Shown piece after piece: positions 19,965-49,495 of a DNA stretch of 64,000 nt. The notes under the pieces are model-generated. The model did not search any database. It was not told the origin of the DNA and saw only the letters and a program-made list of their open reading frames with translations. The DNA is from Clostridium sp. (GTDB taxonomy: Bacteria; Bacillota; Clostridia; Lachnospirales; Lachnospiraceae). Made by a program: the position numbers and the translations under genes. Every line of letters starts with the position of its first letter. The stretch's first letter is position 1. The stretch covers positions 1 through 64,000 of the forward strand of contig JAMPFF010000002.1 of assembly GCA_023664605.1 (NCBI GenBank), read 5' to 3'.

Positions 19965-20612
19965 ATGATATATGCAAATTATATAAAAAGAATACTGGAT
20001 ATCATTCTTTCGCTGACGGCGATTATTGTATTAAGCCCGGTTCTTCTTATTTTGTATATTTTAGTCAGAGTAAAACTGGGAAGTCCTGTTTTATTTAAGC
20101 AGGAGCGTCCGGGCAGAAACGAAGAGATTTTCACGCTCTGTAAGTTCCGCACCATGACGGATAAAAGAGATGAAAACGGGGAATTGTTACCGGATGAAGT
20201 AAGGCTTACCAAATTTGGAAAGCTGCTCCGTTCGACAAGTCTTGATGAATTACCGGAGCTGTTTAATATCTTAAAAGGGGATATGAGCATTATCGGCCCG
20301 CGCCCCTTATTGGTGCGTTATCTGCCGTGGTATACGGAGAACGAAAGGCACAGACATGATGTCAGGCCGGGACTTACGGGGCTGGCGCAGGTAAACGGGC
20401 GCAACGCGTTGGGCTGGGAGGACAGGTTTTCCTATGATTTGGAATACGTCAACCATTGCAGTTTTATGATGGATATGAAAATTATTATGATGACGGTCGG
20501 CAAAGTGTTAAAGCGTTCGGGAACGTTATCCGGCGCGGAACAGACCGTGGAGGATTTTGATATTTACCGTAAAAAGAAACAGAGTCAGGAAAGCGCAGGG
20601 GCATCAGAATGA
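19965..20612 (+). CDS. pglC: PglC-like initiating phosphoglycosyl transferase (monotopic PGT)
   Basis: 215 residues from ATG 19965; an in-frame ATG at 19908 lies inside the previous gene and lacks the family N-terminus. One re-entrant hydrophobic helix (residues 8-33) precedes the catalytic domain with CKFRTM, the Asp-Glu dyad D94-E95 in SLDELPEL, GDMSIIGPRPL and RPGLTGLAQVNGR. It transfers the phospho-amino-sugar from UDP to undecaprenyl phosphate at the inner membrane face, starting glycan assembly. Overlap of 4 nt with the following PLP-enzyme gene (20609) supports one operon. The charged tail YRKKKQSQ is longer than in the minimal PglC. Confidence 0.9.
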   Translation: MIYANYIKRILDIILSLTAIIVLSPVLLILYILVRVKLGSPVLFKQERPGRNEEIFTLCKFRTMTDKRDENGELLPDEVRLTKFGKLLRSTSLDELPELFNILKGDMSIIGPRPLLVRYLPWYTENERHRHDVRPGLTGLAQVNGRNALGWEDRFSYDLEYVNHCSFMMDMKIIMMTVGKVLKRSGTLSGAEQTVEDFDIYRKKKQSQESAGASE

Positions 20613-21562: not shown

Positions 21563-21612
21563 TATTGTGTGCAAGAGTTTATGGGACAAAAGGCAGAAAG
21601 GCTGGTGTTTCA

Positions 21613-22596
21613 ATGAATATTTTGATATTGAGCGCGGGGACAAGAAATAAAATCGTACAGTATTTTAAGAAAGAAGCAGGAGCAGACGGTAAAGTAGTCG
21701 CGACTGACTGCAGTAATTTAGCGCCCGCGGTTTACGACGCGGACAAGTTCTATCTCGTTCCACGCATTACGGCGCCGGGATATTTGGAGCATATTCTGGA
21801 TATCTGCAGGAAAGAACAGATAGACGGCGTTTTTTCCCTGATAGACCCGGAACTGAGTTTACTGGCAAAAGAAAAAGACAGGTTTTTGGAAATTGGCGCG
21901 ACGCCGATTATTTCACCCTATGATTTGGTGGAAACTTGTTTCGATAAATATAAAATGTATCAGATGCTATGCGGGATGCAGATTCCGACCGGAAAATGCT
22001 ATGTGGAAAAAGAGAAATTCTATCAGGCGGTGGAAAAAGGGGAGATATCCTATCCTGTTTTTGTAAAGCCGGTCAAGGGAAGCGCCAGCATCAATATCAA
22101 TAAAGTGAACAGCAAAGAAGAGATAGAGCTTTTATTTACCCTGTATGACGATTTGATGATTCAGGAATATATGGACGGGCAGGAATACGGCGCGGACGTC
22201 TATATCGATATGATATCGGGAAAATGCACCTCCATCTTTGTCAAAAAGAAAATCAAGATGCGCGCCGGAGAAACGGATAAATCGGTGTCGTTTAAGGATG
22301 AAAAACTGTTTTCCATGTTAGAGAATTTCGTGGAAAAGTGCGGCTTCCTCGGGATGATAGATATCGATATTTTTGATATCGGCGGGACTTATTATATTTC
22401 TGAGGTCAATCCCCGCTTTGGCGGCGGTTATCCCCATGCCTATGCCTGCGGCGTCAATATGCCGAAACAGGTTCTTAACAATCTGGCGTGCCGGGAGAAT
22501 GAAAAGACTATTGGAAATTATCTGGAATATATCTGTATGATGAAGTATAATGAGATTGCGATAGAGGACATGAGCGGCGTGCAGATTGTTCCATAA
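21613..22596 (+). CDS. ATP-grasp ligase, possible amino-acid:sugar ligase
   Basis: 327 residues from ATG 21613, which gives the expected Rossmann start MNILILSAGTRNKIVQYF; the in-frame ATG at 21565 adds 16 unlikely residues. ATP-grasp features include YPVFVKPVKGSASI (ATP lysine), IQEYMDGQEYGADVYID, and the metal-binding end EVNPRFGGGYPHAYACGVN, closest to carbamoyl-phosphate-synthase-like ligases. Such enzymes form an acyl phosphate and couple it to an amine. With UDP-4-amino sugar made two and three genes upstream, N-aminoacylation of that sugar is plausible, replacing the acetylation of the Campylobacter pathway. RBS GAAAGG. Confidence 0.8.
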   Translation: MNILILSAGTRNKIVQYFKKEAGADGKVVATDCSNLAPAVYDADKFYLVPRITAPGYLEHILDICRKEQIDGVFSLIDPELSLLAKEKDRFLEIGATPIISPYDLVETCFDKYKMYQMLCGMQIPTGKCYVEKEKFYQAVEKGEISYPVFVKPVKGSASININKVNSKEEIELLFTLYDDLMIQEYMDGQEYGADVYIDMISGKCTSIFVKKKIKMRAGETDKSVSFKDEKLFSMLENFVEKCGFLGMIDIDIFDIGGTYYISEVNPRFGGGYPHAYACGVNMPKQVLNNLACRENEKTIGNYLEYICMMKYNEIAIEDMSGVQIVP

Positions 22597-31633: not shown

Positions 31634-32554
31634 ATGAAATACCGTGTAATCGTATTCGGCGTAAAAGATACGTCGGAAAATATTGTAGAGTTTATTCATA
31701 ACACAATCTGTCCTGTAGATTTGGTTATTACCATCAGTCCGGAAGTAACGAAAAAAAATCAGGTAGCAGGATATAAAGGCTTATCCGTTTTAACGGAAAA
31801 ATATGGGATTTCCGTACATGAAGCGGACAGTTATTTTTTAACAGACGAAAAGACGCAGAAATTTTTACGGGAAAATACGTTTGATATCGGCATTTCCATG
31901 GGATGGCAGAGAATTATTCCGCTGTCCGTATTGGAGCGTTTTGCGTACGGCATATATGGTTTTCACGGTAACTGCGGCTATCTGCCTTTCGGCAGGGGGC
32001 GTTCTCCTTTAAACTGGTCCATTATCCTGGGCGATACCAGATTTAACCTGAACTTATTCCGCTATGACGAAAATGCGGACAGCCCGAATGTGTTTGCGAC
32101 GGAGATGTTTTCCATTACGCCGCATGACGATATCAGGACGGCGCAGTATAAAAATATGATCTGCTCTAAAAATTTGATACGCAAACTCTTGGCGGCGTAT
32201 CAAGAGGGCAATATTACAATCCGTACCGAATCGAAAGATTTTGACTCCTGGTACAATAAGCGTACCGCAGTAGATGGTAAAATTGATTTCAAGGAACGCA
32301 CCAGAACGATTTATAATTTAATCCGCGGCGTGGCGGCGCCTTTTCCCGGCGCTTTTGCCATGTGTGGCGAAGAAAAGGTTATCGTTTGGGAGGCGCATCC
32401 TTTTGATGAGATGATAGATTTTTCAGCATATGCGCCCGGAGAGGTAATTGATGTATTTGATGATAAGCCGATTGTAAGAACAGTAGACGGTTCCCTTTTA
32501 ATCGATCGTTATGAGTGTGAAAAGATGCTGAAACCGGGAGATATATTATCATGA
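31634..32554 (+). CDS. Sugar N-formyltransferase-like protein
   Basis: 306 residues of the formyl transferase fold. The loop reads GFHGNCGYLPFGRGRSPLNW, matching the N-x-H...LLP..RG pattern of methionyl-tRNA and sugar formyltransferases, followed by an Asp in ENADSPNVFA. The catalytic His and Asp are kept, but the Asn two residues before the His is Gly. A C-terminal beta domain follows (about residues 225-306). It probably formylates a 4-amino sugar with N10-formyl-tetrahydrofolate; TDP-Fuc4N from 8060 and the UDP-amino sugar from 18785 are candidates. RBS GGAGG. It overlaps the next gene by 4 nt. Confidence 0.75.
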   Translation: MKYRVIVFGVKDTSENIVEFIHNTICPVDLVITISPEVTKKNQVAGYKGLSVLTEKYGISVHEADSYFLTDEKTQKFLRENTFDIGISMGWQRIIPLSVLERFAYGIYGFHGNCGYLPFGRGRSPLNWSIILGDTRFNLNLFRYDENADSPNVFATEMFSITPHDDIRTAQYKNMICSKNLIRKLLAAYQEGNITIRTESKDFDSWYNKRTAVDGKIDFKERTRTIYNLIRGVAAPFPGAFAMCGEEKVIVWEAHPFDEMIDFSAYAPGEVIDVFDDKPIVRTVDGSLLIDRYECEKMLKPGDILS

Positions 32555-33666: not shown

Positions 33667-35400
33667 ATGATACAAAGGGAGACTGAGAAATTGATAAAGA
33701 TACCAAATGAAGATAACATCAAAATACCGTCAAAACGTCAGTTTTGTGTTATGATTCCCTTTGCCGTTATCTATACTTGTTTTATTATTTTTGGCAATCT
33801 GGAGAAAGCCTCCGAACTTAGTGCGCTGTATAATATAGGGAGAATATTATGCTGTCTGCTTGTCAGTTATGTGGTATTATTTTGCCTGTGCTTTCTTTTA
33901 TCCAACAGGAACGTTATCATAGCTAAAATTCCGCTTTTATCAAAGCTTAAGGAGCAAGAAAGACGTGAGGAAAAATGGTACGTTTTTTTGATTTTTTTCC
34001 TGATTTGCCTGGTTTGTTATCTGCCTTATTTTCTGATGTATTTTCCGACATGGCTCAGTAATGATTCGGTATGGCAGATAGAACAGATTCTCGGTCTTTC
34101 GCCCGCTTCCAATCACCATCCCTATTTTCACACGCTGATAATTAAATTTTTCTTTATGATTGGTTACCGCCTGTTTGGAACCTATACGGCGGCCATTGCC
34201 TTTTATACGTTTTGGCAGGTTGTTATGATATCGCTTGTTTATGCCTTTATCTTATATCAGTTTTATAAAAAGGGAACGCGCCTGTTATGGCTTGCTGCGG
34301 CATTTCTATTTTATGCGGCGCTCCCGGTCAATGGCATGATGACAATTTATATGGGAAAAGATGAACTTTTTTCCGCGCTGTTTCTTTTGTTTACATGGAT
34401 GATAATAGAAACGGCCGGGCATGGAGAGGCAAATAAAATAGAACAAATAGAACAGGCGGATGAAATCGGTCGAAGCGACAGGGCTGGGTGTCTTTCTTAT
34501 TTAATCATAGGATTTTTCATCTGCGTTTTGCGCAGTAACGGCGTTTTCATTTTCCTCGGAACGGCGTCAGCGTTGCTTTTGACGGATGTTTTTAAGAAGC
34601 GTTTTGCAGGAAAGAATCCGCAGAGAATGTCGGTGGTGAAACGGTATGTCTGTATTGCGCTGGCTTTAGTTTGTTATTTTATTTATCATGGTCCGGTCTT
34701 AAATGCGCTGCAGGTGGAGCAGCCGGATACGATAGAGGGGCTGACAATGCCGACGCAGCATATTTTATGCGCTTATTTAAAGGGCGGAACGCTGACCGGG
34801 GAAGAAATAGAGATGATAGACCGGGTCGTGCCTGTAGATAAGGTCGGGGAATATTATAATCCGTATTTGTTTGATATTGTCAAAGCCTTTATCCGCGAAG
34901 AGGGAAACCAGCAGGCGATAGCGGAAAATAAAGGGAAATATTTCGGCTTGTGGCTCCGTGTGGGGCTGCGTAATCCGCTACAGTATGTAGTGGCGGAAGT
35001 AAGGCAGACTATGGGATATTGGGCATATAAAATAAAGGATTATCAATATTTATATGGGGAGTATTTTATGGTGGATAATCCGTTTGGCGTGGAGACGGAG
35101 AGAAAATTTTTTACTTATGATGACAGTCTCGCGATGAATCAGCATTTGAGAAAATTTGAAGATTTTACCAATAAAGTATGGAGTATGGGCTTAAATACAT
35201 GGCTGATGGTCTTTGCGCTTGCGTATGCGGTTTATCATAAGAAAAATGTCCTGCCGTATGTTCCCTGTATCATGCTTTTGGCAACATTACTGTTAGCAAC
35301 GCCGGTTTATAATGAATTTCGATATGCTTACGGGCTGTTTCTGTCGCTGCCGCTTTTGTTAAGTTATAGTTTTCGTTCGGAAAAGGAGGCGTTATCATGA
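33667..35400 (+). CDS. DUF6020-like polytopic membrane protein, second copy
   Basis: 577 residues, ten or more membrane segments. PTWLSNDSVWQIEQILGL followed by NHHPYFHTLIIKFFF parallels the loop of the paralogue at 12445 (Asp, Gln-Glu, then His-His-Pro). Later LGLRNPLQYVVA and TPVYNEFRYAYGLFL recall the LKKPLSYINA and GPTYLPRYVLIFW of the paralogue. A GT-C-like transferase role is inferred. ATGA overlap with the MBOAT gene at 35397. Confidence 0.7.
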   Translation: MIQRETEKLIKIPNEDNIKIPSKRQFCVMIPFAVIYTCFIIFGNLEKASELSALYNIGRILCCLLVSYVVLFCLCFLLSNRNVIIAKIPLLSKLKEQERREEKWYVFLIFFLICLVCYLPYFLMYFPTWLSNDSVWQIEQILGLSPASNHHPYFHTLIIKFFFMIGYRLFGTYTAAIAFYTFWQVVMISLVYAFILYQFYKKGTRLLWLAAAFLFYAALPVNGMMTIYMGKDELFSALFLLFTWMIIETAGHGEANKIEQIEQADEIGRSDRAGCLSYLIIGFFICVLRSNGVFIFLGTASALLLTDVFKKRFAGKNPQRMSVVKRYVCIALALVCYFIYHGPVLNALQVEQPDTIEGLTMPTQHILCAYLKGGTLTGEEIEMIDRVVPVDKVGEYYNPYLFDIVKAFIREEGNQQAIAENKGKYFGLWLRVGLRNPLQYVVAEVRQTMGYWAYKIKDYQYLYGEYFMVDNPFGVETERKFFTYDDSLAMNQHLRKFEDFTNKVWSMGLNTWLMVFALAYAVYHKKNVLPYVPCIMLLATLLLATPVYNEFRYAYGLFLSLPLLLSYSFRSEKEALS

Positions 35401-36857
35401 TGTCGATTATCTCATTTTCCTATCTGGCTTTTCTGGCGGTCGTCTTGGCGGGATATTATCTGATAAAGCCGACATGGCAGTCCGTGTATCTGCTGATTGC
35501 CAGCGTGGGGTTTTACTGTTTGTCGGCAAAGCCTTATACGATTATTTACCTGATGATATCAATCGTCAGCGTTTATTATGCGGCGGTTATGATAGAGAAA
35601 GAGAGCGTGGAAAAAAAGCGCAAAAGAATTTTAGTCTGCGCGCTCATTTTAAATTTCGGGATGCTGGCGTTATTAAAGTATAACCTTTTAGGCGTCTCAA
35701 CCCGGCTGACAGCGTCTCTTGGCATCAGCTATTATACCTTGCAGCTTACCGGGTATCTGCTCGACTGCTATTGGAAAGTCGGGATTGTGCAGACGGATTT
35801 TAAAAAGTTTGCCTTGTTTGCCTGTTATTTTCCGCAGATGACCTCCGGCCCCATCAGCCGTTATAAGCAGATACAAAAGAATCTATATGAACCGCATACA
35901 TTTGACTATGGACGTGTGACGCATGGACTTAGGCGGATGGCATGGGGGTTGTTTAAAAAGATGGCTATTGCCGACAGGTTGGGCTTGATTGTAGATTCTG
36001 TTTACGCTAATTATGAATCCTATCATATTTTATTGATATGGGCGGGGATATTTTGTTTTGCCATTCAGTTATATACCGATTTTTCCGGCTGTATGGATGT
36101 GGTTTTAGGCACAGCGGAATGTATGGGAATCTGTCTGCCGGAAAACTTTAAGAATCCTTTCTTTTCCCGTACGATTCAGGAATTTTGGCAAAGATGGCAT
36201 ATCACGCTGGGAACATGGCTGAAAGATTATATTATGGACCCGGTTTTGAAGTCGGAAGTCTGGATAAAGTTAGGGGAACACTCCAGAAAGCGGTTTGGTA
36301 AAAAATGGGGGAAACGGATTCCAACCTATTGCGGTATGCTGGTTCTATGGCTGGCTATGGGGATATGGCACGGAAACGGATGGAAATATATTGTCGGAGA
36401 GGGGCTGTGGTTCTGGCTTGTCATTATCTTAGGCAATATGTGCGGTAAATCCTTACAGGGGCTTGTCAGGAAATTACATATTCCTGCAGAAAATATTTTC
36501 TGGATTACGTTTCAGCGGCTGCGGACTTTTTTCATATTCAGTATCGGATTGGTCTGCTTTAGGGCGGAAAATATGAAGCAGGTTTTTGATATGCTCTTAT
36601 CCGGCATAACGCAGTTTGGAGAGCGTGGATTCAGCCAGATAAAAGGGGATTTGGGCTATGTGAATCTGGCTTTGTTATGTATAGCGTTTTTGGTATTCAT
36701 CATGGTAGAAAACGCGCAGAACCGCGGCATAGATATTTTTGAGCGGCTGGCAGAGCAAAATGCGCTCGTCAGATGGTGTTGTTATTTGTTTGTATGCGGT
36801 ATAATTTTGTTGTCGCTTGGCGGTTCCGGGCAGAGCTTTATTTATGCCGGATTTTAA
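35397..36857 (+). CDS. MBOAT family O-acyltransferase (DltB/AlgI-like)
   Basis: 486 residues, about eleven membrane segments. MTSGPISRYKQI, FWQRWHITLGTWLKDYI (His268) and WLAMGIWHGNGWKYI with the catalytic histidine H325 are diagnostic for the AlgI/DltB branch. The family moves an acyl group across the membrane onto an extracellular polymer, working with an SGNH partner (AlgJ/AlgX or DltD). The next gene is such a partner, and then come FkbH, ACP, MaoC and SDR genes that could make the acyl donor. This grouping suggests the acyl chain comes from a dedicated carrier protein rather than acetyl-CoA. Confidence 0.9.
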   Translation: MMSIISFSYLAFLAVVLAGYYLIKPTWQSVYLLIASVGFYCLSAKPYTIIYLMISIVSVYYAAVMIEKESVEKKRKRILVCALILNFGMLALLKYNLLGVSTRLTASLGISYYTLQLTGYLLDCYWKVGIVQTDFKKFALFACYFPQMTSGPISRYKQIQKNLYEPHTFDYGRVTHGLRRMAWGLFKKMAIADRLGLIVDSVYANYESYHILLIWAGIFCFAIQLYTDFSGCMDVVLGTAECMGICLPENFKNPFFSRTIQEFWQRWHITLGTWLKDYIMDPVLKSEVWIKLGEHSRKRFGKKWGKRIPTYCGMLVLWLAMGIWHGNGWKYIVGEGLWFWLVIILGNMCGKSLQGLVRKLHIPAENIFWITFQRLRTFFIFSIGLVCFRAENMKQVFDMLLSGITQFGERGFSQIKGDLGYVNLALLCIAFLVFIMVENAQNRGIDIFERLAEQNALVRWCCYLFVCGIILLSLGGSGQSFIYAGF

Positions 36858-36899
36858 GAAAAGAAAAAAGGCGGGAAAAGGGAAAGGCATGGTAACGGA

Positions 36900-37895
36900 A
36901 TGCGGAAATTAGCATGGAAACTGGTTTTATTGGGAGTCCTTTGTTTAGGGCTTGCGACAGGCATATCGGCAGGGATAGACCCCTATAATGTGTTCCATTG
37001 GCAAAATGCAAGGGATAACGGGGTGGAACCCAATAAAAATTATGTAAAAACGCAGTATGTGCTGCATCATCCGGAAAAATATAATATGTTCATTTTCGGC
37101 AATTCACGGGTAGGTTCTCTGGATGCGGCGAAGGTGACGGACGGCGTGTGCTATAATATGTATTATTCCGAAGGGCTTCCGGCGGAGCATTACGAGAATA
37201 TTACGGCATTTTTAGAAGCGGGCGTTTCTATTAAAAGAATCTATCTGGGCATAGATGACGTGACTTGTTTTGTCGATCCCGTGCTGCATGACGACCAGTT
37301 AATCAGACGCCCATTCCGAAACGGGGAGCCGGATATTAGTTTCCTGCGGGATTATCTGAATCCGTCCGTGGCGTTATTATCATTAGAGACAATCTGCGCC
37401 TATCATGAGAAAGAAAAGGATTTTAGCGAGCGGTTATATTCCACCGGGAACTATTATCTGGACACTTCTTTAACGGAGGAAACGATGAGACAAGAGGAGT
37501 GGCCGAATTATTTTGCATGGTACGGGGAAGAGGCTTTAGCGGATATAGCGGAAATTGTTACATTGTGCAGAGAGAGGCAGATTGAACTGATTGTTTTTGT
37601 CAATCCGGAATTTTATGTCCGATTTGAAGAGGCCGTGGAGCGGGGTTATCTGGATTTTTTAAAAGGACTGGCGGAGATTACGGATTATTATAGTTTCTGC
37701 GGCAGTAATTCCATTACCTGTAATGTGGAAAATTTCCATGATATCAGCCATTACCGCATGGAAACGGGAGATTTGATGCTTGCGGTAATGAATGACGGAG
37801 AAGTGGATGAGACGTTATTGGCGGAAAGCTTCGGACAGTATGTGACAAAAGAGAACGTGGATGAGTATCTTACTATATTGAGTCAAAACAGATAA
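36900..37895 (+). CDS. SGNH-like partner of the MBOAT acyltransferase (AlgJ/DltD-like)
   Basis: 331 residues with an N-terminal signal-anchor helix (residues 3-25), placing the rest outside the membrane. FIFGNSRVGSLDA provides the nucleophile Ser, and NFHDISHYRME supplies the Asp-x-x-His pair, the arrangement of AlgJ/AlgX and DltD proteins that complete acyl transfer to polymers. IDPYNVFHW after the anchor is also seen in related MBOAT-partner proteins. It lies 42 nt after the MBOAT gene. Assignment to a named family is by motif layout only. Confidence 0.75.
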   Translation: MRKLAWKLVLLGVLCLGLATGISAGIDPYNVFHWQNARDNGVEPNKNYVKTQYVLHHPEKYNMFIFGNSRVGSLDAAKVTDGVCYNMYYSEGLPAEHYENITAFLEAGVSIKRIYLGIDDVTCFVDPVLHDDQLIRRPFRNGEPDISFLRDYLNPSVALLSLETICAYHEKEKDFSERLYSTGNYYLDTSLTEETMRQEEWPNYFAWYGEEALADIAEIVTLCRERQIELIVFVNPEFYVRFEEAVERGYLDFLKGLAEITDYYSFCGSNSITCNVENFHDISHYRMETGDLMLAVMNDGEVDETLLAESFGQYVTKENVDEYLTILSQNR

Positions 37896-37931
37896 CCGCC
37901 TATTAGGATTAGGAGCAAAGGAGAACGGAAA

Positions 37932-39713
37932 ATGAGAGAATTAGAGTATCCTTATGACAGTACCTACATATATGAGCGCAAGAAAGCGATAAAAAAGGAA
38001 TTATTGGCGAATCTGGACGAAAACTGCCTGCATAAGAAAATCGCTGTTCTGGGCGGCTCTACCACAAGGGATATTAAGCTGATATTGGAGCTTTTTTTAT
38101 TAAATTATGGTATTATGCCGGAGTTTTATGAGTCGGAGTTTAACCAGTACTATCAGGACGCGGTATTTCCTAATCCTGTGTTGGAGGAATTTGCGCCGGA
38201 TATTGTTTTTATTCATACGTCTGTCAAAAATATCGAGAGATTTCCAACCGTATCGGATACGGCGGATACGGTGCAGGAGTTATTGGAGAAAGAATACCGT
38301 AAGTATACGGGTATGTGGAAGCATCTGGAAGAGACCTATCATTGCATTATTATCCAGAATAATTTTGAATACCCCTATTATCGTCTGTTGGGGAATAAAG
38401 ACGCCAGCGATATCCATGGAAAAGTAAATTTCATCACAAGGCTGAATTGTAAATTTTACGAATATGCGCAGGAAAACGAAAACTTTTATATTAACGACAT
38501 CAATTATCTTTCCGCCCGCTATGGTTTGGAGGAATGGTCGAATCCGTTTTACTGGCACAGCTATAAGTATGCGCTTTGCGTGCAGGCGATTCCGGATTTG
38601 GCATTCAGTGTGGCGAAAATTATTAAGTCCCTGTATGGGAAAAATAAGAAAGCTTTCGTATTGGATTTGGACAATACCTTATGGGGCGGAGTCGTGGGAG
38701 ATGACGGCGTTGAGAATCTGGTATTGGGGCATGAAACGTCCGCCGGACAGATATACTGCGCCTTTCAGGAATACCTGAAAGAGTATAAGGATTTGGGCGT
38801 TTTACTTAATATTGATTCAAAAAACGATTATGAAAATGCGCTGGCGGGATTACAGCATCCGGCGGGCGTGCTGAAAGCGGATGATTTTATTCAGATAAAG
38901 GCGAATTGGGAGCCGAAAGATAAAAATCTGGTGCAGATAGCAAAGGAGCTGAATCTGGCGGCGGACAGCATGGTTTTTGTAGACGATAATCCGGCGGAGC
39001 GGGAGATTGTAAGAAAGCAGGCGCCGGGCGTGGCGGTGCCGGAGCTGGAACGGCCGGAGGAATATATTAAAACAATAGACGGTTCCGGCTTTTTTGAAAT
39101 GACACTCATGTCAGAAGATGATAAAAACCGTAACAGGATGTATCAGGAAAACAGGGAGAGGGCGAAAGAGGAAGCCGCTTATGAAAACTACGAGGACTAT
39201 TTGAAGTCGCTGCATATGAAAGCGCAGATTCAGCCTTTTACTGCGGTTTATATGGCAAGAATCGCCCAGCTTACCAATAAGAGCAACCAGTTTAATTTAA
39301 CGACAAGACGTTACACCCAGGCGGAGATTGAAGAGATTGCAGAAAATCCAAACTATCTTACGCTCTATGGCAGACTGGAGGATAAATTTGGCGATAACGG
39401 CGTGATATCCGTAGTCATCGGACATAAAGAGGGGCAGATATTACATATTAAGCTGTGGCTTATGAGCTGCCGCGTCTTGAAAAGGGATATGGAATATGCG
39501 ATGATGGATACGCTGGTTATGTCATGCCGACAACAGGGCATTACGGAAATCAGGGGATATTATTACCCGACGGCAAAAAATAATATGGTAAAAGAATTTT
39601 ATTCTTTGCAGGGATTTGATAAAATAGAAGAAGATGCGGCGGGCAATACGGTGTGGCGGTTGTCTTTAGCGGACGGATATCAACAGAAGAATCAGGTTAT
39701 TTTGGTGGAATAA
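37932..39713 (+). CDS. FkbH-like HAD-IIIC protein
   Basis: 593 residues, three parts: an N-terminal SGNH-like region (VLGGSTTRDIKLIL), a HAD-IIIC phosphatase core with D245-L-D247-N-T-L-W and later FVDDNPAEREIVR, and a C-terminal GNAT-like domain (LTNKSNQFNLTTRRYT, LMSCRVLKRDMEYAMMDTL). This is the full FkbH layout. In polyketide pathways FkbH takes a glyceryl unit from 1,3-bisphosphoglycerate, removes phosphate and loads it on an acyl carrier protein. The next gene is an ACP, which fits exactly. The product of the pathway here is unknown. Confidence 0.88.
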   Translation: MRELEYPYDSTYIYERKKAIKKELLANLDENCLHKKIAVLGGSTTRDIKLILELFLLNYGIMPEFYESEFNQYYQDAVFPNPVLEEFAPDIVFIHTSVKNIERFPTVSDTADTVQELLEKEYRKYTGMWKHLEETYHCIIIQNNFEYPYYRLLGNKDASDIHGKVNFITRLNCKFYEYAQENENFYINDINYLSARYGLEEWSNPFYWHSYKYALCVQAIPDLAFSVAKIIKSLYGKNKKAFVLDLDNTLWGGVVGDDGVENLVLGHETSAGQIYCAFQEYLKEYKDLGVLLNIDSKNDYENALAGLQHPAGVLKADDFIQIKANWEPKDKNLVQIAKELNLAADSMVFVDDNPAEREIVRKQAPGVAVPELERPEEYIKTIDGSGFFEMTLMSEDDKNRNRMYQENRERAKEEAAYENYEDYLKSLHMKAQIQPFTAVYMARIAQLTNKSNQFNLTTRRYTQAEIEEIAENPNYLTLYGRLEDKFGDNGVISVVIGHKEGQILHIKLWLMSCRVLKRDMEYAMMDTLVMSCRQQGITEIRGYYYPTAKNNMVKEFYSLQGFDKIEEDAAGNTVWRLSLADGYQQKNQVILVE

Positions 39714-39761
39714 CCGCAGGCTGAAAGGCATGACAAAATAAGAACGGAGGATTTGTGAATC

Positions 39762-40007
39762 ATGACAAGAGAAAAAGTATATGAAAATTTAAACGAGGTA
39801 TTCCGTTATATTTTCGATGATGAGAGTATCACGGTACGGGATGAAACGACTGCCGACGATATTGAGGACTGGGACAGCTTTGAACATATTAATCTGGTTA
39901 TTGCGGTGGAGAAAAAGTTTGGGATTAAGTTTACGGTCGGCGAGGCAAATGAAATGAAAAACGTAGGCGAGATGGTGGATATCATATTGGAACGTATGCC
40001 GTCATAG
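39762..40007 (+). CDS. Acyl carrier protein
   Basis: 81 residues, four-helix ACP. DWDSFEHINLVIAVEKKFG carries the phosphopantetheine serine, S39, and the following helix II; net charge is acidic. It is a stand-alone carrier adjacent to FkbH, MaoC and SDR genes and is therefore not the housekeeping fatty acid ACP. It should hold the acyl intermediate that is finally passed to the MBOAT protein. GGAGG precedes the start. Confidence 0.92.
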   Translation: MTREKVYENLNEVFRYIFDDESITVRDETTADDIEDWDSFEHINLVIAVEKKFGIKFTVGEANEMKNVGEMVDIILERMPS

Positions 40008-40031
40008 CTTATGGAAAAGGAAAATGTATTT

Positions 40032-40463
40032 ATGAAAGAATATAGTTATGATATAGTGGAAGTGGGCATGGAAGAGTCTTTTCAGGTAACCGTGACAGAA
40101 GAGATGATGGAAAAATTCATGTCGATAACAGGGGACGAAAATCCGTTGCATACGGACGCAGCATATGCCAGAAGCAGAAACTATGAGAACAAGGTGGTTT
40201 ACGGTATGTTGACCGCGTCTTTTTACTCCACGTTAGCAGGGATGTATCTGCCGGGCAAATACAGTCTGATTCACAGTATGGACAATAAATTTTTGCGTCC
40301 TGTCTATGTGGGGGATACGCTGACTGTTTCGGGAACCGTGAAAGAAAAAGAGGACGCATATCGTATGCTGATTCTGAATCTGCTGATTAAAAACCAGCGG
40401 GGAGAAAAAATAGCAAAAGGAACTATGCAGATAAAGGTATTGGATAGATTGAAAAATCCATGA
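40032..40463 (+). CDS. MaoC-like hydratase/dehydratase
   Basis: 143 residues from ATG 40032, chosen because AAGGAAAA lies before it and the in-frame ATG at 40011 has no ribosome binding site. Single hot-dog domain with MSITGDENPLHTDAAYA, giving Asp35 and His40 of the R-hydratase active site, and the substrate-channel region YGMLTASFYSTLAG. It hydrates enoyl or dehydrates 3-hydroxyacyl thioesters. Beside an ACP and an SDR it probably shapes the carrier-bound acyl chain. Its last codons form the left arm of the hairpin at 40447. Confidence 0.88.
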   Translation: MKEYSYDIVEVGMEESFQVTVTEEMMEKFMSITGDENPLHTDAAYARSRNYENKVVYGMLTASFYSTLAGMYLPGKYSLIHSMDNKFLRPVYVGDTLTVSGTVKEKEDAYRMLILNLLIKNQRGEKIAKGTMQIKVLDRLKNP

Positions 40464-40503
40464 TTTTTCAATCGCGAATTTGTTCCTGCGGCACAAATAT
40501 CGC
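40447..40503 (+). repeat. Two-hairpin intergenic element, copy B
   Basis: Hairpin 1 is a perfect 12-bp stem GATTGAAAAATC (40447-40458) / GATTTTTCAATC (40462-40473) spanning the MaoC stop codon. Hairpin 2 pairs GCGA-ATTTGT (40474-40483) with ACAAAT-A-TCGC (40493-40503) and has the same bulged A as copy A at 7922. CCTGCG (40485-40490) can alternatively pair with CGCAGG (40501-40506). Confidence 0.7.
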
Positions 40504-40534
40504 AGGTTGAGAGAAAGGCACAGTTTATTATAAT

Positions 40535-41269
40535 ATGGAAAAGACAGTTTTGATTACAGGCGCCTCTTCCGATTTGGGGATGGCGTATATTGCAAAATAC
40601 GGGGCGGCGTATACTCATATTATCGCGCAGTACCGTAATAAGAACGAGGAGTTTAACGCTTTGCTGGAAACATACGGGGATAAAATGATGCCCATACAGG
40701 CGGATTTTTCCAAGAAAGAGGAAGTAGAAAGCTTTGTGGAAAAGGTAAAGTGCAGCGGGGATGTACCGACCCATGTGCTGCACTTGGCTTCGCTGCCGGC
40801 AAAAAGTATCAGATTTTATAAAAGCGGCGTGGATATGTATCAGGAAATGATGCAGGTCTGTGTCTATAGCATTATGGAAATTTTAAAGGCTTTTATAACG
40901 CAGATGTCCAAACAGAAATACGGCAGGATTTTATTTATGCTGTCCGCCTATACGACGATACCTGACCCCAAATATGAAGCGCCTTATACCGTTTCCAAAT
41001 ATGCGCTGCTTGGCTTGATGAAGTCCATCGCTGCGGAATATGCGGCTAAGGGCATTACGGCAAACGGCATTTCCCCGCAGATGATAGAAACCAAATTTAT
41101 TAAAGATATTCCGGAATTGATTATAGAGCAGCATAAGATGGCAAGCCCGTCCGGCAGAATATTACAAAAAGAGGATATTTTACCGATGATGCAGCTTTTG
41201 CTGTCGGATGAAGCGGCGGGCGTTACCGGAGAGAATATCAGTATTACCGGAGGAAATTATATTTTATGA
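40535..41269 (+). CDS. SDR family oxidoreductase, FabG-like ketoreductase
   Basis: 244 residues. TGASSDLG (8-15) binds NAD(P); the catalytic residues are Ser137, Tyr151 and Lys155 (EAPYTVSKYAL). SITGGNYIL at the end is typical of FabG-like proteins. It should reduce a 3-keto or related carbonyl of a carrier-bound acyl group or the reverse, completing the ACP module. There is no clear Shine-Dalgarno within 10 nt; GAGAAAGG is 13 nt upstream. ATGA overlap with the GT4 gene at 41266. Confidence 0.85.
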   Translation: MEKTVLITGASSDLGMAYIAKYGAAYTHIIAQYRNKNEEFNALLETYGDKMMPIQADFSKKEEVESFVEKVKCSGDVPTHVLHLASLPAKSIRFYKSGVDMYQEMMQVCVYSIMEILKAFITQMSKQKYGRILFMLSAYTTIPDPKYEAPYTVSKYALLGLMKSIAAEYAAKGITANGISPQMIETKFIKDIPELIIEQHKMASPSGRILQKEDILPMMQLLLSDEAAGVTGENISITGGNYIL

Positions 41270-42442: not shown

Positions 42443-42507
42443 AGAAAAGAACATTTTGAACGATTGCACGCAGGATTCACAGAACGTGATGTAACATGAG
42501 GATTCAT

Positions 42508-43578
42508 ATGACCCGTAAACAATTATTGCAAGGCATCATTTTCATAGGGATTTTTTTGCTGGCGTTAATCCCGGTTTCCTATATCGTTAGGACAAACGGC
42601 GATGTAAAGGACAGATTTTCCGGTTTTTATGCGCAAAAGGATGATACGCTCGATATTGTCATGATAGGTTCAAGTCCGGTTTTTCCTTATTACAGTGCGC
42701 CCATGCTGTGGGGAGAGACAGGGATTGCGGCATATCCGCTTTCCTCCAATCTGCAAAGACCGGCGGCAATGAAATATCTTGTCAAAGAGGCGCAAAAGAC
42801 GCAGTCGCCGTCTCTTTATATTTTTGAAATGCGTATGTATACGATGGAAGATGCGGGACTGACTGAAAATATGGCGTATACAAGGGGCGTAACGGATAAT
42901 CTGAAATATTCAGCGAACCGCGTGGAGACGATTCAGGCGTTGGTGCCGGAGGGTGAAGATAGGTTAAGCTATTATATCGATTTGTTTAAATATCATACAA
43001 ATTGGAAAATGTTTGCGCTTTCGTCCGAATGGAATAATTGGCGTTATGAAAAAGAAAATAACCTGAAAGGTTTTTTTATAAAAGACGAGGTGGGACCGAC
43101 GCCGACGCCGACGGTGGGCGGTATGAAAGGAGAAATGAAGATTCCAAACGAGCAGGAGGCTTATCTAAGGGATTTATTGCAATATTTGCAGGAAAATAAA
43201 TTACAAGCGTTATTTATAGTGTCGCCTTATGGGGAAAGCATGGAAGAGCAGCAGATGTTCAATTATATGGGCGGCATCATAGAAGAAGCGGGATATCAGT
43301 TTCTTAATATGAATAACCATTATGATGAAATTGGGATTGTATTTGAAGAGGATTTTGCCGATTACGGCAGTCATACGAACGCTGTCGGCGCGCAGAAGTG
43401 TACGGCATTTTTAGAAAAGTATCTGCTGGCTAATTATGATTTTACGGACAAGCGGGGAGATGACAGCTACGCTTCTTGGGATGCGGCCTACGAATTATGG
43501 CTTCAGGAAACGAGGCGGGCATCGGGAGTCATTGCGGAACATATCGCGAACGGGGATTATGCGGAAATAGAAGAATAA
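42508..43578 (+). CDS. Membrane-anchored SGNH-like protein
   Basis: 356 residues from ATG 42508, which has GAGG 6 nt upstream; ATG 42496 has none. A signal-anchor (residues 3-25) is followed by an extracytoplasmic domain. IVMIGSSPVFPYYSAP supplies a putative nucleophile Ser and DYGSHTNAVGAQK a late Ser/His region, similar to DltD-like and SGNH proteins. A short Pro-Thr repeat (GPTPTPTVGG, encoded near 43095) looks like a flexible linker. It could serve an acyl-transfer or deacylation step for one of the membrane acyltransferases (4995, 35397). Its exact family is not recognised. Confidence 0.65.
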   Translation: MTRKQLLQGIIFIGIFLLALIPVSYIVRTNGDVKDRFSGFYAQKDDTLDIVMIGSSPVFPYYSAPMLWGETGIAAYPLSSNLQRPAAMKYLVKEAQKTQSPSLYIFEMRMYTMEDAGLTENMAYTRGVTDNLKYSANRVETIQALVPEGEDRLSYYIDLFKYHTNWKMFALSSEWNNWRYEKENNLKGFFIKDEVGPTPTPTVGGMKGEMKIPNEQEAYLRDLLQYLQENKLQALFIVSPYGESMEEQQMFNYMGGIIEEAGYQFLNMNNHYDEIGIVFEEDFADYGSHTNAVGAQKCTAFLEKYLLANYDFTDKRGDDSYASWDAAYELWLQETRRASGVIAEHIANGDYAEIEE

Positions 43579-44359: not shown

Positions 44360-44399
44360 AAAGTGGAGTTCATTTGAGAGAAAGACATGGGGGATTGCA

Positions 44400-46283
44400 A
44401 TGTGCGGTATTTGCGGTTATATCAGTAAAAAGGGCATTACTATAGAAAACCTGAAAGCGATGAACGATACAATGGTTCATAGAGGACCGGATGACAGTGG
44501 AGAGGAAATCTATGAGATGGCGGGCGGCTATCAGATAGGACTGGCACAGCGCAGACTCTCCATTCTGGACTTATCGGCTCTGGGGCATCAGCCCATGCAC
44601 TCCGCGGATAAGAGAATTTCCGTCGTTTATAACGGGGAAATTTATAATTATCCGAAGCTTCGGGAGGAATTATCGGACTATCCGTTTAAATCCCGCTGTG
44701 ATACGGAGGCGATTATTGCCGCCTATCTCAAATGGGGCGTAGACTGCGTAAAGCATTTTAACGGTATGTTTGCTATTGCGCTGTATGACAGGGAGAGCGG
44801 CGAAGTCTATCTGATGCGCGACAGGGTCGGTAAAAAGCCGCTTTATTACTGGAAAAAGGAAGACGGCATTGTCTTTGCGTCCGAATTAAAGCCTATTATG
44901 GCATATCCGGGTTTTCCGAAAAAAATCCGGAGAGAAGTGATACCGCGTTATCTGTTTCAGCAGTATATCAACGCACCGGACAGTATCTTTGAAGACGTAT
45001 ATAAAATAGAACCGGGAAGCGTCCTGCGGTTCCATAAAGGAGAAATAACAACCTGGAAATATTGGGATATTAAGCAGGTTTATCAAAAGCAGATTGCAGA
45101 CCCTGTTAAAAGTTATGAAGAGGCAAAGGAAAGGTTAAAGGCAAGTCTGCAAAAATCCGTAAGGGCGCGTATGCTCTCTGATGTGCCGTTAGGTTCCTTT
45201 TTAAGCGGCGGCTATGATTCTTCTCTTGTAACGGCCATTGCGCAGGAATGCAGCGATACGCCGGTCAAGACATTTTCCATTGGATTTTATGAAGAAAAGT
45301 ATAACGAGGCGGGATATGCCAAGGAAGTAGCCAAATATCTGGGAACGGCGCATACGGAACTTTATATTGATGAGCAGGAAATGTTTCAGTTAGTGGAGAG
45401 TATTCCGCAGTATTATGATGAGCCTTTTGCGGACAGTTCGCAGATTCCCACCATGCTGGTTTCGCAGCTTGCAAGAGAACATGTGACGGTGGCGTTGTCG
45501 GGAGACGGCGGCGATGAATTTTTCTGCGGTTATAATATCTATGAAAATGTCAGTCAGGCGCAAAAACTGGATATGCTTGGAGGAATGGTGCATACCGTCT
45601 GCCATCTGCCGGGCTTTAAACAGATAGGATTGGAGGAGCGGCTGCCGTTTCGCGTACGCGTGATTGCCGGAAATCGGGAAAAAGAAAGTAAGACCCAGTT
45701 TGGCGCGGGAAATTATATTGTCAAGGCAAATGCAATGGTAAAAAAGAGCGGAAACTTTTTACCGGTACATTATCTGATGGAAAGTGAGTACGGTGTGAAA
45801 AACTGGCAGATTCGCCGGATGCTGCTGGATATGGACACCTATCTGCCGGGAGATATCCTCTGTAAGATGGACAGGGCTTCCATGAAATATTCTCTGGAGG
45901 CAAGATGCCCTATTTTAGATACGGATGTTATGGAATTATCCTACCGTATTCCGCATTCCTATAAGTATGCGCATGGGGATAAAAAGCATATTTTGAAAGA
46001 TATCGCCTACGATTACATTCCGAGAAAACTGCTGGAACGTCCGAAAGTGGGATTTGGCGTGCCGCTTGATAAGTGGATGCGCGGGCCGTTAAAGGAACAG
46101 TTATTAGATTACAGCAGTTATAATTATTTGAAAAAGCAGGATATTTTTGACGCGGACTATACTTCCGATATGATACAGAGTTATATGAGGACCGGTGATG
46201 CCGGTCCGGCGACAGGAGCAAACTATTCTAAACTCGCGTGGTCGTTTTTTGTATTCCAGCAGTGGTATCAAAATTTTCAGTGA
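44400..46283 (+). CDS. AsnB-type glutamine amidotransferase, possible uronic acid amidase/synthase
   Basis: 627 residues from ATG 44400, fixed by the need for Cys2 as the N-terminal nucleophile after Met removal (MCGICGYIS); GGGGG lies upstream. An Ntn glutaminase domain (FNGMFAIALYD, RDRVGKKPLYY) is followed by an ATP-pyrophosphatase domain with LSGGYDSSLV (269 onwards) and LSGDGGDEFFCG. The family includes true asparagine synthetases and WbpS-like enzymes that turn uronic acids in surface glycans into uronamides. A UDP-GalNAcA route is encoded in this window, so the latter role is favoured. A second copy is at 47597. Confidence 0.85.
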   Translation: MCGICGYISKKGITIENLKAMNDTMVHRGPDDSGEEIYEMAGGYQIGLAQRRLSILDLSALGHQPMHSADKRISVVYNGEIYNYPKLREELSDYPFKSRCDTEAIIAAYLKWGVDCVKHFNGMFAIALYDRESGEVYLMRDRVGKKPLYYWKKEDGIVFASELKPIMAYPGFPKKIRREVIPRYLFQQYINAPDSIFEDVYKIEPGSVLRFHKGEITTWKYWDIKQVYQKQIADPVKSYEEAKERLKASLQKSVRARMLSDVPLGSFLSGGYDSSLVTAIAQECSDTPVKTFSIGFYEEKYNEAGYAKEVAKYLGTAHTELYIDEQEMFQLVESIPQYYDEPFADSSQIPTMLVSQLAREHVTVALSGDGGDEFFCGYNIYENVSQAQKLDMLGGMVHTVCHLPGFKQIGLEERLPFRVRVIAGNREKESKTQFGAGNYIVKANAMVKKSGNFLPVHYLMESEYGVKNWQIRRMLLDMDTYLPGDILCKMDRASMKYSLEARCPILDTDVMELSYRIPHSYKYAHGDKKHILKDIAYDYIPRKLLERPKVGFGVPLDKWMRGPLKEQLLDYSSYNYLKKQDIFDADYTSDMIQSYMRTGDAGPATGANYSKLAWSFFVFQQWYQNFQ

Positions 46284-47572: not shown

Positions 47573-47596
47573 TGAGAGAAAGGAATGGGTATTCAT

Positions 47597-49495
47597 ATGT
47601 GTGGGATTGCCGGGTTTTGTAACGGAAAATTTGACTGGAAAGAGAATATAGAACGTATGAACGACCGGCTCTATCATAGGGGACCGGATGCTTCCGGCGT
47701 ATGGGCGTCGGAAGATAAGAGGGTTGTGCTTGGACATAGGAGATTATCTATTGTAGATTTAACTTTTAACGGCTCACAGCCTATGGAATCGCATGACGGA
47801 CGTTATATAATGGCTTATAATGGGGAAATTTATAATTATCAGGAAATAAAAGAAAAGTTAATACAGGAGGGAAAAGTGACTGCTTTTAGGGGAACTTCTG
47901 ATACGGAAGCGCTTTTGGAAGCAGTTTCCGCATATGGATTACAGGAAACATTGAAGAAATGTAAGGGTATGTTTGCCATTGCGCTGTATGATAAAAAACA
48001 ACAAGAGTTATTTTTGGCAAGAGACAGGGTAGGGGAGAAGCCATTGTACTATGGGTTTGTTGGAGAGCAAACCTTTGCGTTCGCTTCGGAAATACGCGCA
48101 TTGACTTGCTTGGACAATTTCAAAAACCCGATAAATACGGGCATTCTGCAAACTTATTTCCGCTATGGATACATTCCGGCGCCCTATTCCATTTACCAAA
48201 ATATTTATAAATTAGAGCCGGGAAAAGTGCTAAAAATGAAATCTCCATTTAATAAATATGACATAGAAACGTATTGGTCGATGCGTGAAAAGGCTTATTA
48301 TGGACAGACGCATCTGTTTCAGGGTTCCGAAAAAGAGGCTGCTGAGGAGTTGGAGAGATTGTTAAAAAATGCCATCCGCGGGCAGATGGCGGCTGATGTG
48401 CCGGTAGGCGCTTTTTTATCTGCGGGAATTGACAGCCCTACGATTGTAGCCCTGATGCAGTCGATAAGTGACAAATGTGTCAGAAGCTATACCATCGGCA
48501 TGTGGGAAAAGGATTTTAATGAGGCTGAAATCGCTAAGAAAATTGCGGCGCATCTTGGCACGGAACATACGGAACTATATATTACGGAAGAGGATGCCAA
48601 ACAGGTGATACCGAAATTGGGCGGTATGTTCGGAGAGCCGTTTGCGGATTCCTCCCAGATACCGACATATCTGGTTAGTAAGATGACAAGGGAGCATGTG
48701 ACGGTATCGTTAAGTGGTGACGGCGGCGATGAATTGTTTGGCGGTTATGGCACGTACCGTTCTGTTGAACGTATCTGGCGGCAGACACAAAAAATACCAT
48801 CTGTTATCAGGAAACCGGCGAGTGCGGCAATTCTGCACAGCCCATGGGGCAGGAGCGGTTCTTTGGCGGTCAGGGCGAGACTGCTTGGCGCATCCGGTAT
48901 AGAGGATATGTACAGACGTTCCGCGCAGGGCGAGGGGATAGAACTGGTGTCGGCGGACGTGCTGCGAAAACTTACCGCTACCGGCGCGGACGGCGGACAA
49001 TGTATTACGGCCATGGATGACTATACGGATGGCTTTTTGCCGGAGCCGGTGCATAATTTAATGCTGATGGATATGCTGATGTATCACCCTGACGATATTC
49101 TGGCGAAGGTGGACAGAACGGCGATGGCGGTTTCTTTGGAAACAAGAGTGCCGATGTTGGACAGGGATGTTGTGGAGTTTGCATGGAGCCTGCCTCTTTC
49201 CTATAAAAAGCAGGGGGATGTTACCAAGAAAGTGTTGCGTGATATTTTATACCAATATGTTCCCCGGGAGTTGATGGAGCGCCCGAAAAAAGGGTTTGCC
49301 ATTCCTTTGCGGAAATGGTTAAAACAGCCCGGGCTTCGGGAGTGGGCGGAAAGTTTACTGGATAGGAAACAAATAAAAGAACAGAAGTTATTAAATTCGG
49401 ACAATGTGGAGAAAATCTGGAAAGATTATATTGAACATGATATATGGCGTCAGCAGATATGGCATGTGTTAATGTTTCAGGCCACTATGTTTTAG
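47597..49495 (+). CDS. AsnB-type glutamine amidotransferase, second copy
   Basis: 632 residues from ATG 47597; an in-frame ATG at 47585 would place four residues before the catalytic Cys and is rejected (MCGIAGFCNG). Glutaminase domain: YHRGPDASG, MAYNGEIYNYQEI, RDRVGEKPLYYGF. The synthetase domain has LSAGIDSPTIV at 274 onwards in place of the canonical Ser-Gly-Gly loop, and LSGDGGDELFGGYG. This change is at the pyrophosphate-binding loop but keeps the Asp-Ser. As with 44400, amidation of a GalNAcA residue is the favoured role. The sequence is clearly diverged from 44400, so it is not a recent duplication. Confidence 0.85.
   Translation: MCGIAGFCNGKFDWKENIERMNDRLYHRGPDASGVWASEDKRVVLGHRRLSIVDLTFNGSQPMESHDGRYIMAYNGEIYNYQEIKEKLIQEGKVTAFRGTSDTEALLEAVSAYGLQETLKKCKGMFAIALYDKKQQELFLARDRVGEKPLYYGFVGEQTFAFASEIRALTCLDNFKNPINTGILQTYFRYGYIPAPYSIYQNIYKLEPGKVLKMKSPFNKYDIETYWSMREKAYYGQTHLFQGSEKEAAEELERLLKNAIRGQMAADVPVGAFLSAGIDSPTIVALMQSISDKCVRSYTIGMWEKDFNEAEIAKKIAAHLGTEHTELYITEEDAKQVIPKLGGMFGEPFADSSQIPTYLVSKMTREHVTVSLSGDGGDELFGGYGTYRSVERIWRQTQKIPSVIRKPASAAILHSPWGRSGSLAVRARLLGASGIEDMYRRSAQGEGIELVSADVLRKLTATGADGGQCITAMDDYTDGFLPEPVHNLMLMDMLMYHPDDILAKVDRTAMAVSLETRVPMLDRDVVEFAWSLPLSYKKQGDVTKKVLRDILYQYVPRELMERPKKGFAIPLRKWLKQPGLREWAESLLDRKQIKEQKLLNSDNVEKIWKDYIEHDIWRQQIWHVLMFQATMF

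Follow-up and report, generated by a model that had tools for sequence, protein, structure and literature searches.

How is an acyl group supplied to a membrane-bound O-acyltransferase (MBOAT) when an acyl carrier protein (ACP) and its predicted loading enzyme are encoded beside it? This question is raised by a six-gene cassette in a 64,000-nucleotide stretch of DNA from Clostridium sp. of the family Lachnospiraceae (assembly GCA_023664605.1, contig JAMPFF010000002.1, positions 1 to 64,000; hereafter the window). It forms the opening 64 kb of a 352-kb contig, in a genome of 3.59 Mb and 78 contigs that is 95.5% complete. At 35397-41269 on the + strand, genes for an MBOAT, an SGNH-like protein, an FkbH-type protein, a stand-alone ACP, a MaoC dehydratase and a short-chain dehydrogenase/reductase (SDR) follow one another in the same orientation, 3-71 bp apart. 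An initial annotation had named these six genes in this order and extent, and the list of open reading frames (ORFs) and family searches bear it out. Overlaps of 4 bp are found at both ends of the cassette, between MBOAT and the upstream gene and between SDR and the next glycosyltransferase gene. We consider it probable, though well short of certain, that the cassette is a carrier-fed operon for transmembrane glycan acylation, in which FkbH loads the carrier and MaoC and SDR turn the loaded unit into a lactyl group.

The predicted loading enzyme, FkbH, reaches 289 bits against TIGR01686 (cut-off 146.65) and 49.5 bits against FkbH_N (PF21211), and it has a solved relative in 3slr (E 3e-53). D245, D247, K297, K329, D351 and D352, the expected catalytic residues of a haloacid dehalogenase (HAD) enzyme, are conserved together with C513 in 164/164 relatives including the window. 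The ACP scores under the curated cut-offs (36 of 70 bits for NCBIfam, 16.7 of 20.8 for Pfam PP-binding), and its phosphopantetheine-bearing Ser39 is conserved in 152/152. In the tetronate and methoxymalonyl pathways, stand-alone ACPs are described as receiving glycerate from FkbH proteins (PMC4979870, PMC7489565), and a table in PMC7901079 writes the FkbH reaction as 1,3-bpg + ACP -> D-lactate-ACP. The window's genome has a second FkbH (locus L003:10836-12653, contig C8), near which neither ACP nor MBOAT was detected; its neighbours read as housekeeping genes, and the related locus L040 is alike.

The MBOAT matches PF03062 with 40.5 bits (cut-off 27) and the DltB chains 6bug/8jem in a profile search (E 2e-36), and is far under the cut-off of the DltB equivalog (TIGR04091, 158.3 vs 375 bits). 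Its H325 and H268 align with H336 and H289 of DltB, positions being counted by hand, and H268, H325 and Y483 are invariant in a 35-sequence alignment (A5); the sequences in it were picked for a terminal F, hence the conservation of F486 there is by selection. A feature absent from the initial annotation is the C-terminus of the MBOAT, FIYAGF, an acyl-shuttle motif. This motif is terminal in 103 of the 113 complete MBOATs (at least 400 aa) of FkbH loci and in 0/1107 other ORFs of at least 300 aa, an unselected count, and four of the ten MBOATs without it end in FIYxxI or FIYxxV. PatA is reported to acetylate itself on the Tyr of its C-terminal FXYXXF, and a synthetic acetylated peptide of the motif to serve as donor for the SGNH partner; in Dlt, the motif is carried by a microprotein of its own, and the donor is a carrier protein (PMC12148441). 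FIYAGF on the MBOAT and an ACP in the operon therefore combine, in the window, an MBOAT of PatA type with a carrier-protein supply of Dlt type. MBOATs are frequent in these bacteria: genomes of the genus have 3 to 16 each, and the window's genome has 10.

MaoC matches PF01575 with 59 bits (cut-off 27). Its true start is probably Met8 (window 40032), which is conserved in at least 95%, and D42 and H47 in ORF numbering are conserved in at least 95% of 35 sequences. SDR matches PF13561 with 119 bits (cut-off 27) and also PF00106; the nearest NCBIfam models are YmfI-type and FabG, both below cut-off. Y151 and K155 are conserved in 25/25 SDRs, and position 137 is S in 16 and T in nine. The motifs called intact by the initial annotation are so upon alignment: FkbH D245/D247, ACP S39, MBOAT H325, SDR S137/Y151/K155, and MaoC D35/H40, which are D42/H47 renumbered from the Met8 start. 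The cassette SDRs carry G-A-S-S-D-x-G in the cofactor loop, with Asp13 in 22/25. Most SDRs have Gly at this position, and the loop may mark a dedicated SDR subfamily.

As also stated earlier, the operon contains no ketosynthase; the genome has a single PF02801 match and a single PF08541 match, both on contig C33 and separated by about 3 kb, and no further ketosynthase was detected in it. MaoC is the sole PF01575 match in the genome, and no match to DltC (TIGR01688) was found in it. These three features of the genome support a dedicated role of the MaoC-SDR pair. Other assignments were rejected: local fatty-acid synthesis on the confinement of ketosynthase matches to C33, a MaoC serving another pathway on its being the only one found at 95.5% completeness, and a Dlt system on the lack of DltC and the score of the MBOAT below the DltB cut-off.

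What would such a pair do on a loaded ACP? Dehydratase-ketoreductase (DH-KR) proteins have been characterised that convert glyceryl-S-ACP into lactyl-S-ACP in FR901464 and lankacidin biosynthesis (PMC4765723), and MaoC plus SDR beside FkbH-ACP would be a stand-alone equivalent of DH-KR in logic. Because of this precedent, the only MaoC of the genome being here, the ketosynthases being only on C33 and the lack of DltC, lactyl is the most likely acyl group. In the chemistry that we infer, FkbH would take glyceryl from 1,3-bisphosphoglycerate, as is the function of its family, and put it on ACP. MaoC would then eliminate the C3 hydroxyl with the C2 proton, and the resulting 2-hydroxyacryloyl-ACP would tautomerise to pyruvyl-ACP, whose 2-keto group SDR would reduce to give lactyl-ACP, by analogy with the characterised precedent. 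On the cytoplasmic side, the MBOAT would take the thioester of the ACP as donor and move the acyl group to Tyr483 of the FIYAGF shuttle, from which an SGNH-like protein (36900 or 42496) would pass it to a hydroxyl group on the polysaccharide that the locus produces. The initial annotation had proposed that a C3 unit goes from an FkbH-loaded ACP through the MBOAT to a surface glycan, and co-occurrence, the coupling of MaoC with SDR and the shuttle motif support this; its suggestion that the unit might be glyceryl or a dehydrated or reduced form of it is likewise supported, and is sharpened to lactyl by the DH-KR precedent (PMC4765723). Klebsiella capsules are listed as carrying O-lactyl groups (PMC11048683), so that the product class is not unheard of.

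Recurrence was examined around FkbH genes; loci, genomes and contigs are cited by L, G and C numbers. In the window's genus, 37 genomes were searched and 32 have FkbH, with 40 full-length matches including the window. The regions of 37 of these matches were examined (leaving out G032, G033 and G015), and 30 genus genomes with FkbH regions are thereby covered, 29 of the 32 plus G120 from the family set. The family set has 71 over-cut-off matches outside the window's genome, and 60 of their regions, 59 of other genera, were examined (leaving out G076, G311:C118, G338, G159, G236, G176, G167, G217, G286, G157 and G334:C9). From named records, the loci of the best 80 of 570 confirmed relatives were added, and all 13 over-cut-off matches of the phylum set outside the family were examined as well. 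From 176 loci, five near-duplicates were removed, which leaves 171 with the window counted apart, and 122 of these have at least 4 kb on both sides. Neighbours were labelled by phmmer with single queries (E 1e-3), Pfam being run on representatives only, and an MBOAT was counted as present when on the same strand within 6 kb of FkbH. A FastTree tree was made of 123 FkbH proteins, with 50 of its 120 inner branches starred.

The full set is found at the same locus in five of the genus genomes, the window and L034-L037, and also in other genera, and thus the cassette is not a chance arrangement. In L037 four ORFs lie between MaoC and SDR, and SDR is still retained. Among the 122 loci, ACP is present in 113, MBOAT in 79, SGNH-like genes in 63, MaoC in 25, genes of the VOC family in 18, SDR in 16 and transketolase-like genes in eight. 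The co-occurrence check suggested in the initial annotation returns a recurrent unit. The MBOAT abuts the donor block (<300 bp) in 37/122 loci, and ACP is found in 78 of the 79 MBOAT-bearing ones (Fisher p=0.001 for the MBOAT-ACP link within FkbH loci). MaoC and SDR are coupled: 16 loci have both, nine MaoC only, none SDR only and 97 neither (p=5e-14). On the FkbH tree, at least 18 state changes were counted for MaoC and 15 for SDR, and in independent pairs SDR follows MaoC in about 12/15 and does the opposite in none (p about 0.0005). Such repeated joint gain or loss is the expectation from a two-step tailoring pair. For comparison, 20 FkbH-free MBOATs of the genus were picked among the upper rows of the MBOAT list, with no genome used twice and with the rows of G005, G019, G004 and G060 as well as repeats skipped; FkbH, ACP, MaoC and SDR are nearby in 0/20. 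The control MBOATs are probably mostly one orthologue group, 16 of them ending in STFLYFNF.

Several results weigh against the reading of the cassette as a lactyl-transferring operon. The FkbH domain of vioprolide synthesis is reported to activate D-3-phosphoglycerate (PMC10099666), and the donor of FkbH may therefore be another than 1,3-bisphosphoglycerate. The closest solved relatives of MaoC are CoA hydratases, the best of them 5cpg, an (R)-specific enoyl-CoA hydratase. SDR is missing within 6 kb of FkbH in nine of the 25 MaoC loci; four of these have the transketolase-like pair, the SDR of L130 lies in one gene run with FkbH at a distance of about 7 kb, and L107, L109, L120 and L207 have none in reach. 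The reverse, an SDR with no MaoC, is seen in a single one of the 171 loci, L091, whose genome G311 has the MaoC locus L107. The SGNH-like assignments are motif only. MaoC does not predict MBOAT (19/25 vs 60/97, p=0.24; independent pairs, p=1), which argues that donor and transferase are separable. Independent pairs show no significant link of MBOAT with ACP (3.5 in the same direction, 0 in the opposite one, p=0.25), since ACP is nearly constant. A same-strand MBOAT within 6 kb is missing in 43/122 FkbH loci, and the feeding of an MBOAT is therefore proposed for the window's locus and not as a general property of FkbH-ACP. Outside the family, MBOAT is found in just 1/13 FkbH loci (L239), and FkbH-ACP is accompanied by MaoC and SDR in 2/13 (L232, L238); the donor module is therefore older or more mobile than its link with the MBOAT.

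Three other explanations of the cassette have to be weighed. The unit delivered may be glyceryl or pyruvyl, if the MBOAT uses glyceryl-ACP directly and MaoC and SDR act elsewhere, or if MaoC gives pyruvyl and SDR is unneeded. Glyceryl-ACP is presumably enough in 48/122 loci, which have an MBOAT and none of the MaoC, SDR, transketolase, VOC and Antibiotic_NAT-like genes; L118, a polysaccharide locus like the window's, lacks MaoC and SDR, and the four loci noted above with MaoC and no SDR in reach would fit the pyruvyl variant. However, the window and its four genus relatives retain both genes, even with the four intervening ORFs of L037, every SDR of the 122 loci accompanies a MaoC, and the genome has no other MaoC, so that we regard this explanation as unlikely, if the most serious of the three. 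Considerably less probable in our view is that MaoC and SDR make a 3-hydroxyacyl group carried by the ACP, e.g. (R)-3-hydroxybutyryl from crotonyl-CoA or acetoacetyl; it has the least weight of all. It would agree with the (R)-specific enoyl-CoA hydratases nearest to MaoC and with the FabG/YmfI-like character of SDR, but FkbH, which together with ACP forms the constant core of these loci (113/122), would have no part in it. The confinement of detected ketosynthases (PF02801, PF08541) to C33 also speaks against it, as does the fact that none was noticed among the recurrent neighbours, of which only some clusters are annotated.

Slightly ahead of the 3-hydroxyacyl explanation, and still improbable, is that two modifications share the locus: MBOAT and SGNH-like protein would O-acetylate from acetyl-CoA like PatAB, and FkbH-ACP-MaoC-SDR would supply an N- or O-acyltransferase in the cytoplasm whose acceptor is a sugar nucleotide. 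PatA itself, with the same fused shuttle, is described as using acetyl-CoA (PMC12148441). In L117 the donor genes are beside NeuB and a 324-aa protein that reads as GNAT-like and has no family match, and donor genes without MBOAT are found beside Antibiotic_NAT-family proteins (L107, L122) as well as outside the family (L232, L238). Yet no such cytoplasmic acyltransferase is seen in the operon, and the abutment of MBOAT on the donor block (37/122), the order FkbH-ACP-MaoC-MBOAT-SGNH-like in L144, L148 and L153 and the lack of ACP near the 20 FkbH-free MBOATs all favour a connected pathway. MBOAT and NeuB avoid each other, NeuB being found in 1/79 loci with MBOAT vs 9/43 without (p=3e-4), which is expected of alternative exits. 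A lactyl group made on the FkbH-loaded ACP and exported through the MBOAT is thus the reading that we retain.

NeuB-type genes are present in 10/171 loci and Antibiotic_NAT-family proteins in 7/171 (by phmmer; two were run on Pfam), the latter label being a Pfam family name with no resistance role implied. In L117, L110, L175, L207 and L231, FkbH-ACP, in some with MaoC or MaoC plus SDR, is found without MBOAT beside NeuB-type genes and once, in L231, near chemotaxis genes. L099, L110, L117 and L175 share a protein of about 330 aa without family assignment, which reads as GNAT-like.

Which protein would take the acyl group from the shuttle? SGNH1, next to the MBOAT, has GNS (67-69) and DISH (281-284) invariant in three orthologues and an N-terminal hydrophobic stretch, read by eye, and has no Pfam match even at E 5 and no family match in the profile libraries. 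By motifs and position it is a candidate SGNH-like protein. In SGNH2, farther downstream, G58, S60, D286 and H293 are invariant in 13 sequences. Relatives of SGNH2 adjoin the MBOAT in L118, L144, L145, L148 and L153, and the gene after the MBOAT in L118, L144, L148 and L153 is of SGNH2 type, not SGNH1 type. The relative in L118 has a weak match to PF13472 (20.4 of 32.9 bits), and the SGNH2 protein of the window has no family match. When profiles of the SGNH1 and SGNH2 families were compared with that of a GDSL-type family and among themselves, the probabilities were 1-4%, hence no support, the low-scoring alignment of SGNH2 spanning the C-terminal block only, and a PDB profile search with SGNH2 returned designed proteins and other chance-like matches. 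The SGNH partner of the initial annotation stands in that a protein with SGNH-like motifs adjoins the MBOAT; its label comes from motifs only, and SGNH2, outside the six-gene stretch then described, is an equal candidate. SGNH1, SGNH2 or both may take the acyl group from Tyr483. In L058 (G009, contig C38), a short HAD-IIIC protein, an SGNH1-like protein fused to a polysaccharide deacetylase domain and an MBOAT are side by side; this part of the G009 assembly has a divergent look and may not belong to it.

Table 1. Features of the acylation cassette and its surroundings in the window.
Feature	Coordinates	Strand	Basis
MBOAT acyltransferase, DltB-like core, C-terminal FIYAGF (Tyr483)	35397..36857	+	PF03062, DltB profile match, motif
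SGNH1, SGNH-like membrane-anchored protein, candidate extracytoplasmic transferase	36900..37895	+	motifs and position beside MBOAT
FkbH-type HAD-IIIC phosphatase/glyceryl transferase, predicted ACP loader	37932..39713	+	TIGR01686, PF21211, solved relative 3slr
Stand-alone acyl carrier protein, Ser39	39762..40007	+	ACP models below cut-off; conserved Ser39
MaoC hot-dog dehydratase	40032..40463 (ORF opens 40011)	+	PF01575; 5cpg best solved relative
SDR ketoreductase	40535..41269	+	PF13561/PF00106
SGNH2, second SGNH-like membrane-anchored protein, alternative or additional candidate MBOAT partner	42496..43578	+	motifs; relatives beside MBOAT
Formyltransferase-like gene, same polysaccharide locus, outside acyl module	31634..32554	+	PF02911, PF00551
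Initiating sugar-phosphate transferase of surrounding glycan locus, context	19968..20612	+	PF02397

The surroundings of the cassette are a polysaccharide locus, in which family searches identify a sugar dehydratase, a DegT aminotransferase, two initiating sugar transferases, a UDP-sugar dehydrogenase, GT11 and a formyltransferase; the remaining glycosyltransferase labels are from translations read by eye. At 20609-22596 a PALP enzyme and a PylC-like/ATP-grasp ligase lie within the locus and may point to amino-acid decoration of the same glycan. Two genes at 44391-46283 and 47585-49495 read as asparagine-synthase-like, and one or both are retained near the acyl cassette in L034-L036, L129 and the related locus L118.

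The variety of genes around FkbH-ACP raises the tentative idea, for which we see nearly as much reason as doubt, that FkbH-ACP is the glycolysis-fed chassis of a modular glycan-acylation code in gut Clostridia, with a shared glyceryl-ACP, exchangeable tailoring plug-ins and several exits. Without a plug-in the product would be D-glyceryl; a VOC protein resembling methylmalonyl epimerase would give epimerised glyceryl, and MaoC plus SDR lactyl; a larger acyl group would come from a split transketolase with MaoC, joined in some loci by an aldo/keto reductase. Exported glycans would be served by MBOAT-SGNH, and further exits would be acyltransferases of other kinds, the Antibiotic_NAT family among them, and nonulosonate loci; the mutual avoidance of MBOAT and NeuB supports this part of the idea. 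VOC and MaoC share no locus: among 171 loci, 37 have MaoC and 22 VOC with an overlap of 0 (p=0.005), and the overlap is also 0 in the 122 loci (p=0.023), both p values being uncorrected for kinship and number of tests. The VOC representative is nearest to methylmalonyl-CoA epimerase, with 57 bits (cut-off 115). One VOC gene near FkbH-ACP is L041:11434-11829, whose product may epimerise glyceryl-ACP. Within one close clade, L160 and L171 have MaoC plus SDR, L180 and L194 have VOC, and L156 has neither. The split transketolase pair is found in 14/171 loci, 11 with MaoC, 10 with MBOAT and five with an aldo/keto reductase, and suggests a larger acyl group on the same ACP, made with thiamine diphosphate (ThDP). 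Loci with this pair include L132, L133, L137, L144, L145, L146, L148, L153, L162, L167, L177 and L186. Taken together, the VOC/MaoC exclusion, the swaps within a clade and the transketolase pairs suggest exchangeable tailoring of one glyceryl-ACP intermediate.

If the proposal for the cassette is true, it would be a third feed for MBOAT-SGNH acylation, neither acyl-CoA nor DltA-loaded D-Ala, and would tie the decoration of surface glycans directly to a glycolytic intermediate. It would also offer candidate genes to explain bacterial polysaccharides that bear O-lactyl or glyceryl groups, and allow an in-vitro test of MBOAT recognition of acyl-ACP. The FkbH on which this chemistry depends is not rare in the family, with matches over cut-off in 63/299 family genomes vs 14/398 across the phylum, the window's genome being in both sets. 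Searches on FkbH/ACP/polysaccharide, MBOAT/glyceryl and FkbH/Lachnospiraceae returned no description of the cassette in open-licence literature, which omits most subscription journals, so that the absence is weak; it agrees with the earlier remark that no described polysaccharide modification using exactly this set was known.

How, then, does the cassette compare with known systems? In Dlt D-alanylation (DltA, DltC, DltB, DltX, DltD), the carrier is loaded by the adenylating enzyme DltA. The cassette shares with Dlt a DltB-like MBOAT core and would share a carrier-protein thioester as donor, an acyl-Tyr shuttle and, if a candidate SGNH-like protein serves as final transferase, that last step too (mechanism of Dlt in PMC12148441); it differs in its predicted loading by FkbH, in transferring probably a C3 hydroxy acid and not D-Ala, in having the shuttle fused to the MBOAT and not on a separate DltX microprotein, and in the addition of MaoC and SDR. 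With O-acetylation of the PatA-PatB and AlgI type, it has in common an MBOAT with a fused C-terminal FXYXXF, next to which a separate SGNH-like protein is a candidate partner. PatA-type systems are characterised by an acyl-CoA donor and no carrier protein, whereas the gene content of the cassette points elsewhere, with an ACP and its loading and tailoring enzymes in the operon. The tetronate and methoxymalonyl glycerate operons likewise make glyceryl-ACP by FkbH and a stand-alone ACP (PMC4979870, PMC7489565), but use FabH-like or dehydrogenase/O-methyltransferase steps, none of which is seen in the cassette. The DH-KR starter units of FR901464 and lankacidin also use glyceryl-ACP, a dehydratase and a ketoreductase, a likeness of logic (PMC4765723); in the cassette MaoC and SDR are stand-alone, there is no polyketide synthase, and the product presumably goes to the MBOAT for a glycan. 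Thus, the cassette is most likely carrier-fed like Dlt, shuttle-fused like PatA and loaded by FkbH, and what sets it apart within MBOAT-SGNH glycan acylation is an FkbH-loaded ACP donor together with a MaoC-SDR pair most likely making lactyl.

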